Positions 9,371 to 53,333 of a DNA stretch of 64,000 bases are shown one piece after another; position 1 is the first letter of the stretch; the number at the start of each line of letters is the position of its first letter. Below the pieces are notes generated by a model. It was not told the DNA's origin, ran no database searches, and was given only the letters and a program-made list of their open reading frames with translations. Both the position numbers and the translations under genes were made by a program. Location: assembly GCA_009760855.2 (NCBI GenBank), contig WPIO01000025.1:2899501-2963500 (forward strand), read 5' to 3'. Origin of the DNA: Cristatella mucedo. Lineage: Eukaryota > Bryozoa > Phylactolaemata > Cristatellidae.

Positions 9371-9464
9371 ATGGCAGACCCAGCCGAGCTAGACAATGTG
9401 AAGAAGCTGGTGAGGAGCATACTAATTAGCTGCAAGGATGGTGTCCCTGTGGACGAGCTGGCAT
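9371..9464 (+). CDS. TDRD7: TDRD7-like exon 1 (start; LOTUS 1)
   Basis: Residues 1-31, beginning MADPAELDNVKKLVRSIL; the helix KKLVRSILISCKDGVPVDEL is a typical first half of a LOTUS/OST-HTH domain. Donor is T|gtacgt, phase 1. This is the first ATG in the frame; no clear promoter was seen upstream. Confidence 0.85.

Positions 9465-53333: not shown

Follow-up and report, generated by a model that had tools for sequence, protein, structure and literature searches.

A probable TDRD7 orthologue in the bryozoan Cristatella mucedo, with downstream copies of its last Tudor module

We have found that a 64,000-nucleotide stretch of the Cristatella mucedo genome (the window; G000:C177:2899501-2963500, within a 572 Mb genome of 688 contigs) very probably carries a protein-coding orthologue of TDRD7 of the mollusc type, in which an N-terminal extended LOTUS domain (eLOTUS) is followed by a disordered linker, a weak second LOTUS domain and three extended Tudor domains. 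The assignment to TDRD7, as far as it goes beyond the architecture itself, is suggested by that architecture together with pairwise similarity; the mollusc-type label is read from the domain layout and could be wrong. The gene lies on the forward strand, and its 24 resolved exons form two in-frame blocks, one of 19 exons (9371-42303; 831 codons in frame without a stop) and one of 5 exons (48595-53333; 276 codons and a stop), which together encode 1107 residues, a lower bound on the length of the protein. The start codon is the ATG at 9371 and the stop codon the TAG ending at 53333, exactly as had been proposed by an earlier reading of the letters (the sequence-only reading). That reading had also joined 26 exons in frame into 1188 codons with GT-AG at each junction; the two blocks stand, with AG at 23 of 23 acceptors and GT at 23 of 23 donors, while two exons and about 80 codons were not found and the joint between 42303 and 48595 was not confirmed.

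Reconstruction of the gene from short exons

The template for both tblastn and spliced alignment was a human TDRD7 sequence, and the spliced aligner (DP) combines protein match with codon use and splice sites in its score; the exons were then curated by phase. Local tblastn placed parts of the gene along the forward strand; its strongest match, at 37646-38028 to human Tudor 1, reached E 5.8e-4, and the remaining matches were weak singly. The resulting features are as follows, with T0, T1 and T3 denoting the first, second and last Tudor domains.

9371-9464, +, exon 1: start codon and eLOTUS part 1 (DP spliced alignment; Pfam OST-HTH)
11558-11660, +, exon 2: eLOTUS part 2 (spliced alignment, phase join, Pfam)
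13379-13481, +, exon 3: eLOTUS end and C-terminal extension (spliced alignment, PDB match, phase join)
19573-20124, +, exon 4: Ser/Pro-rich linker (5' edge by phase only; no homology support)
20648-20735, +, exon 5: linker, tentative (best 0->1 phase candidate; no homology support)
21497-21552, +, exon 6: LOTUS 2 part 1 (spliced alignment, phase join)
23359-23501, +, exon 7: LOTUS 2 core (tblastn E 0.49, weak alone; spliced alignment, PDB)
25506-25548, +, exon 8: LOTUS 2 end (spliced alignment, phase join)
25863-25957, +, exon 9: linker, tentative (best 0->2 phase candidate; no homology support)
26092-26206, +, exon 10: T0 N-terminal arm (read by eye; Pfam; phase join)
27144-27263, +, exon 11: T0 strands 1-2 (Pfam, phase join)
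35017-35166, +, exon 12: T0 core (own-genome PF00567 match, E 2.7e-4; Pfam)
36577-36652, +, exon 13: T0 C-terminal arm (spliced alignment, phase join)
36746-36874, +, exon 14: T0 C-terminal arm (spliced alignment, phase join)
37021-37118, +, exon 15: T1 N-terminal arm (tblastn, spliced alignment, phase join)
37637-37810, +, exon 16: T1 (tblastn to human TDRD7 Tudor 1, E 5.8e-4)
37906-38001, +, exon 17: T1 core (tblastn; own-genome PF00567 E 0.017, over the cut-off; Pfam)
41614-41750, +, exon 18: T1 C-terminal arm (phase join)
42183-42303, +, exon 19: T1 C-terminal arm (spliced alignment, phase join)
42304-48594, +: stretch that, for a single gene, needs one linker exon or more (exit and entry phases do not fit)
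48595-48848, +: exon a of the last Tudor module (T3, copy 1; spliced alignment, copy comparison)
48986-49072, +: T3 exon b (spliced alignment, copy comparison)
50535-50639, +: T3 exon c (found by comparing three module copies; missed by the guided aligner)
52820-52937, +: T3 exon d, Tudor core (tblastn, copies; own-genome PF00567 E 0.17 as a lone exon, under the cut-off)
53065-53333, +: T3 exon e with stop codon (spliced alignment, copy comparison)

Spliced alignment from the ATG at 9371 scored 206, as against -43.0 to 7.2 for 20 shuffled templates (mean -22.0, s.d. 12.7) and -35.8 for the reversed human TDRD7 protein. Template-free gene finding, which uses codon use and splice sites, missed the gene and returned a 4-exon, 141-residue chain instead, so homology carries the reconstruction. 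That the exons are mostly too short to stand alone, as the sequence-only reading had stated, is borne out by 23 of the 24 being shorter than 100 codons (the exception being 19573-20124, 552 nt), and a strict list of stand-alone exon candidates contained a few of the true exons. A Pfam search of raw frames (two of three, over 9371-24371) returned a single unrelated family at E 0.33, which is what split exons would lead one to expect. It is the shortness of most exons, the miss by template-free gene finding and the three linker exons placed by phase and splice scores rather than homology (19573-20124, 20648-20735 and 25863-25957) that could suggest a decayed gene or a chance assembly of short open frames. 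We regard this as very improbable indeed, given the shuffle control (206 against at most 7.2), the Pfam scores of the LOTUS and Tudor domains described below and the fact that the exon boundaries of the T3 module are kept across three diverged copies.

Three exons offered by the DP aligner were set aside. The linker exon 14216-14253 was dropped because its word recurs at four places on each side, the linker exon 16814-16882 because it is not needed, exon 3 being in phase with 19573 without it, and 50393-50434 was replaced by 50535-50639 after comparison of the module copies.

The window also holds mobile and simple-sequence elements. A non-LTR retrotransposon open frame (30701-33709, +; endonuclease E 6.4e-12, reverse transcriptase E 7.6e-31) sits in the intron between the T0 exons 27144-27263 and 35017-35166, and a weak reverse transcriptase fragment (E 0.001, below the cut-off) lies at 57235-57576 (+), about 4 kb downstream of the gene. 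Long simple-sequence arrays are found at 4439-4602 (GTCT), 10506-10615 (AG), 12728-12824 (CA), 13035-13247 (CT-rich), 34133-34362 (TC/GT-rich), 42478-42546 (GA) and 52667-52759 (TC), several of them inside introns of the TDRD7-type gene.

The LOTUS and Tudor domains

In the 831-residue block, Pfam places LOTUS 1 (PF12872, OST-HTH) at residues 7-71 (E 7.2e-11, 42.2 bits versus a cut-off of 23.8), with DUF7515 over the same N-terminal stretch (27.3 versus a cut-off of 27). Among PDB chains the domain matches TDRD5 (3s93; 9.1e-10, 42.1 bits) first and TDRD7 (3rco; 2.3e-5, 28 bits) second, and the alignment to 3s93 reaches query residue 97 and so covers the C-terminal extension. As a separate piece LOTUS 2 falls below every Pfam cut-off, DUF7515 at E 0.082 being the only family returned, and its best PDB match, a weak one, is the tandem LOTUS of TDRD7 (2ly1, E 0.0086). 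One or more further LOTUS domains are present in the TDRD7 of many but not all animals. An exon-by-exon search of the C. mucedo genome with PF12872 gave no match at E 0.001, and the same kind of search was positive in 0 of 14 control genomes. Judged by its sequence, the N-terminal domain would belong to the eLOTUS class (Oskar, TDRD5 and TDRD7), which is defined by the C-terminal extension and which binds and stimulates Vasa (PMC5458760); the extension is necessary for Vasa binding according to Jeske et al. (PMC5458760).

Three TUDOR domains (PF00567) score 62.1, 62.4 and 61.3 bits against a cut-off of 23, and follow LOTUS 1 in the expected order; the domains are joined in frame up to 42303, and the third Tudor sits past the joint whose phases do not fit. 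Both the order of domains given by the sequence-only reading and its expectation that profile searches would find LOTUS (42.2 bits) and Tudor (61.3-62.4 bits) thus held. Searched as pieces, T0, T1 and T3 reached 6.9e-17, 5.6e-17 and 1.2e-16, and in the 831-residue block TUDOR was matched in two stretches with a whole-protein E of 1.2e-33. The best PDB chains are TDRD1 for T0 (1.4e-5), Drosophila GH18329p, which we take to be Papi, for T1 (1.9e-10), and a Tudor-and-KH protein homologue for T3 (8.9e-9; at most 38.4 bits among PDB chains by phmmer). Against the human TDRD7 sequence, T3 scored 52.0 bits to Tudor 3 and 38.9 bits to Tudor 1 with blastp, a program other than the phmmer used for the PDB chains. 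The middle Tudor T1 (37-42 kb) matches human Tudor 1, including the N-terminal arm, by tblastn, and T0 (26-36.9 kb) precedes this counterpart, at the position where human TDRD7 has LOTUS 3. A clear counterpart of human Tudor 2 was not found in the gene region. Three candidates were rejected: 45514-45560 because the words adjoining it recur in the region (45565, three matches) in the manner of a repeat tail, 48048-48212 for want of any Pfam match, and 47058-47184 because Pfam returned nothing beyond an unrelated DUF (E 0.029).

Alignment of the Tudor cores shows that T1 retains Trp-Tyr-Arg and Phe-Val-Asp-Tyr-Gly, that T0 carries Leu at the position of this Phe and that T3 has Asp-Phe-Gly; the two downstream module copies described below have Asp-Thr-Gly (copy 2) and Asp-Val-Gly (copy 3). 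Judged against the residues of the methyl-arginine cage, T1 would be the best candidate among the Tudors for binding methyl-arginine. An exon-by-exon Tudor profile search of the whole genome gave 27 matches, those in the window being at 35017 (E 2.7e-4), 37909 (E 0.017) and 52820 (E 0.17, under the cut-off). Other multi-Tudor loci in the same genome lie at G000:C177:2333810-2342712 (-) and G000:C676:2567407-2587340 (+).

These matches also bear on whether the gene might instead be an orthologue of TDRD5. TDRD5 has several LOTUS domains and a single Tudor. TDRD5 and Tejas resemble the present gene in their N-terminal eLOTUS, and among PDB chains LOTUS 1 is nearest to TDRD5. They differ from it in having one Tudor, as against three here if block 2 belongs to the gene and two in block 1 alone; moreover, LOTUS 2 is nearest to TDRD7 in the PDB, and in a comparison with the Tudors of human TDRD7, T1 aligns to Tudor 1 and T3 to Tudor 3. 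We consider a TDRD5 orthologue improbable. Orthology to TDRD7, which the sequence-only reading had put forward, appears supported by architecture and pairwise similarity, with the caveats that LOTUS 1 is nearer to TDRD5 and that the Tudors are not human 1-2-3 in order.

The joint between the blocks and the copies of the last Tudor module

The exit phase at 42303 is 0 and the entry phase at 48595 is 1; since these do not fit, at least one further exon is needed between 42304 and 48594. Four settings of the DP aligner gave four different solutions for this interval, and in a phase-by-phase list of candidates the top-scored lay in a repeat tail, several were tied behind it and none stood out. The joint could hold the two extra exons and roughly 80 codons of the sequence-only reading, which would fit the gap.

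The five-exon T3 module is present in three copies, the one in the window and others at C177:2978842-2984242 and C177:2995396-3001977. Copies 2 and 3 begin about 26 and about 43 kb after the stop codon of the window gene, and each has five exons and its own stop codon. All three keep the splice sites and the position of the stop, and the frames from a common ATG in exon a comprise 245, 244 and 243 codons, stop included, in copies 1, 2 and 3. Copies 2 and 3 score 53.4 and 49.7 bits with the Tudor profile. The genome-wide match at C177:2983746 (E 1.54, under the cut-off) is a copy of the last Tudor module, and copy 3 is absent from the 27 matches, so that further copies elsewhere are possible. 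Over the next 60 kb downstream no more copies were found at E 0.01, the queries being the three module copies, LOTUS 1 and T0-T1. In the flanks (50 kb downstream with window 53401-64000, and 30 kb upstream with window 1-9300), a search for LOTUS, T0 and T1 exons gave E 0.09 or worse, except for the T0 and T1 cores landing on T3 copies. We note that window 47569-47760 is 74-77% identical in translation to C177:2967354-2967544, upstream of copy 2, and hence that the duplicated DNA extends upstream of the coding module.

It is conceivable that there are two genes here, one of the form LOTUS-LOTUS-Tudor-Tudor ending after 42.3 kb and a small, tandemly copied one-Tudor gene at 48.6-53.3 kb. The linker exons across 42304-48594 were not pinned down, the T3 module occurs in three tandem copies with a common in-frame ATG in exon a, and in the flanks searched these copies are without an accompanying copy of LOTUS, T0 or T1, all of which would suit two genes. 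Nevertheless, we think this unlikely, as the last Tudor is in the same protein in both human TDRD7 and, as reported, clam TDRD7 (PMC8277629), copy 1 is the closest of the three to human Tudor 3 (52.0 bits, versus 37.0 for copy 2 and 39.7 for copy 3), and phase 1 entry at the 5' splice acceptor is open in copy 1 but not in copy 2. We therefore continue to favour a single TDRD7-type gene.

Entry at the conserved exon-a acceptor sets the copies apart: phase 1 alone is open in copy 1 and phase 0 alone in copy 3, while copy 2 has no open phase among the three. Splicing at that acceptor thus cannot put copy 2 in the place of the last Tudor, and could bring in copy 3 only from a donor of another phase; the notion that copies 2 and 3 serve as alternative 3' cassettes was downgraded on these grounds.

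Are the copies alive? Each is without stops in frame, and in neutral simulations at 0.175 substitutions per site per lineage the frame remained stop-free in 3.5-4.4% of 3000 runs from each of two starting sequences, which makes the stop-free frame modest evidence for life, per copy. Also in favour, the exon gaps are 3, 3, 6 and 3 between copies 1 and 2, and 1 and 6 between copies 1 and 3, the gap of 1 being a shift upstream of the common ATG, whereas among gaps of at most 20 bases in the introns only 9 of 69 and 11 of 57, and for copies 2-3 6 of 38, are divisible by three. Against living copies, the identity of exons exceeds that of introns by little (68.3 versus 66.9%, 74.4 versus 68.9% and 73.1 versus 71.6%; the figures for those intron windows that align well are 73.2, 71.9 and 72.8%), the exon gaps between copies 2 and 3 are 1, 3, 194, 3, 6, 6 and 3, of which the 194 is probably an alignment fault, dN/dS is not far below 1 (0.65 for copies 1-2, 0.68 for 1-3 and 0.82 for 2-3), and the acceptor entry is closed in copy 2 and shifted in copy 3. 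Copies 2 and 3 may be mini-genes that start at the internal ATG, or copies that were recently relaxed. We put forward as a tentative idea, which the evidence leaves on the doubtful side, that they are living one-Tudor genes that arose when the 3' end of a germ-granule scaffold gene was duplicated in tandem, with a conserved internal ATG start and fast divergence, and whose free Tudors could compete with or tune TDRD7. Should the copies be alive, they would show how duplication of a 3' end can supply the germ-granule machinery with free Tudor modules. Among the papers listed, judged by titles and the beginnings of abstracts, no item had copies of a TDRD7 Tudor module as its subject, which does not imply absence from print.

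Likely role and comparison with known systems

The eLOTUS-Vasa binding of relatives, and the role of Tapas in nuage and piRNA, lead us to infer that the protein acts as a germ-granule scaffold in which LOTUS 1 would hold Vasa while the Tudors take other partners. By analogy with relatives, the extended LOTUS would bind and stimulate the helicase Vasa, the Tudors would dock partner proteins, possibly via methyl-arginine at T1, and this docking would build germ granules for piRNA work, with germline expression and the partners themselves predicted on the same footing. It appears that a correct reading of a long, intron-rich and putatively germline gene is possible from raw sequence.

The predicted protein resembles human TDRD7 in its N-terminal eLOTUS, in a candidate further LOTUS and in that Tudors 1 and 3 are recognisable. 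Human TDRD7 has three LOTUS and three Tudor domains. It differs in that here one Tudor precedes the counterpart of Tudor 1, and that counterparts of LOTUS 3 and Tudor 2 were not found. With Drosophila Tapas, which works in nuage and in the piRNA pathway, the gene shares an N-terminal LOTUS and three Tudors, and LOTUS plus three Tudors is described as the layout of Tapas and Tdrd7 (PMC4210518), in agreement with what the sequence-only reading had taken to be the TDRD7 arrangement; Tapas differs in having a single LOTUS, as reported (PMC5458760).

The closest likeness is in layout, to TDRD7 of the Manila clam Ruditapes philippinarum, for which two LOTUS domains (20-92 and 361-429) and three TUDOR domains (447-563, 644-764 and 962-1078) are reported (PMC8277629). 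In both, two LOTUS domains, the second a weak candidate here, are followed by three Tudors, the first Tudor comes directly after LOTUS 2 and a long gap lies ahead of the last Tudor (PMC8277629). The clam protein is of similar length, with 1134 amino acids as against at least 1107 here, the two being compared by layout, and it differs in being reported as single copy in the transcriptome (PMC8277629). The gene is thus ordinary in layout, the arrangement being already in print for the clam (PMC8277629), and it is one more example of the clam-type TDRD7 layout, whose set of retained Tudors is not that of vertebrates.
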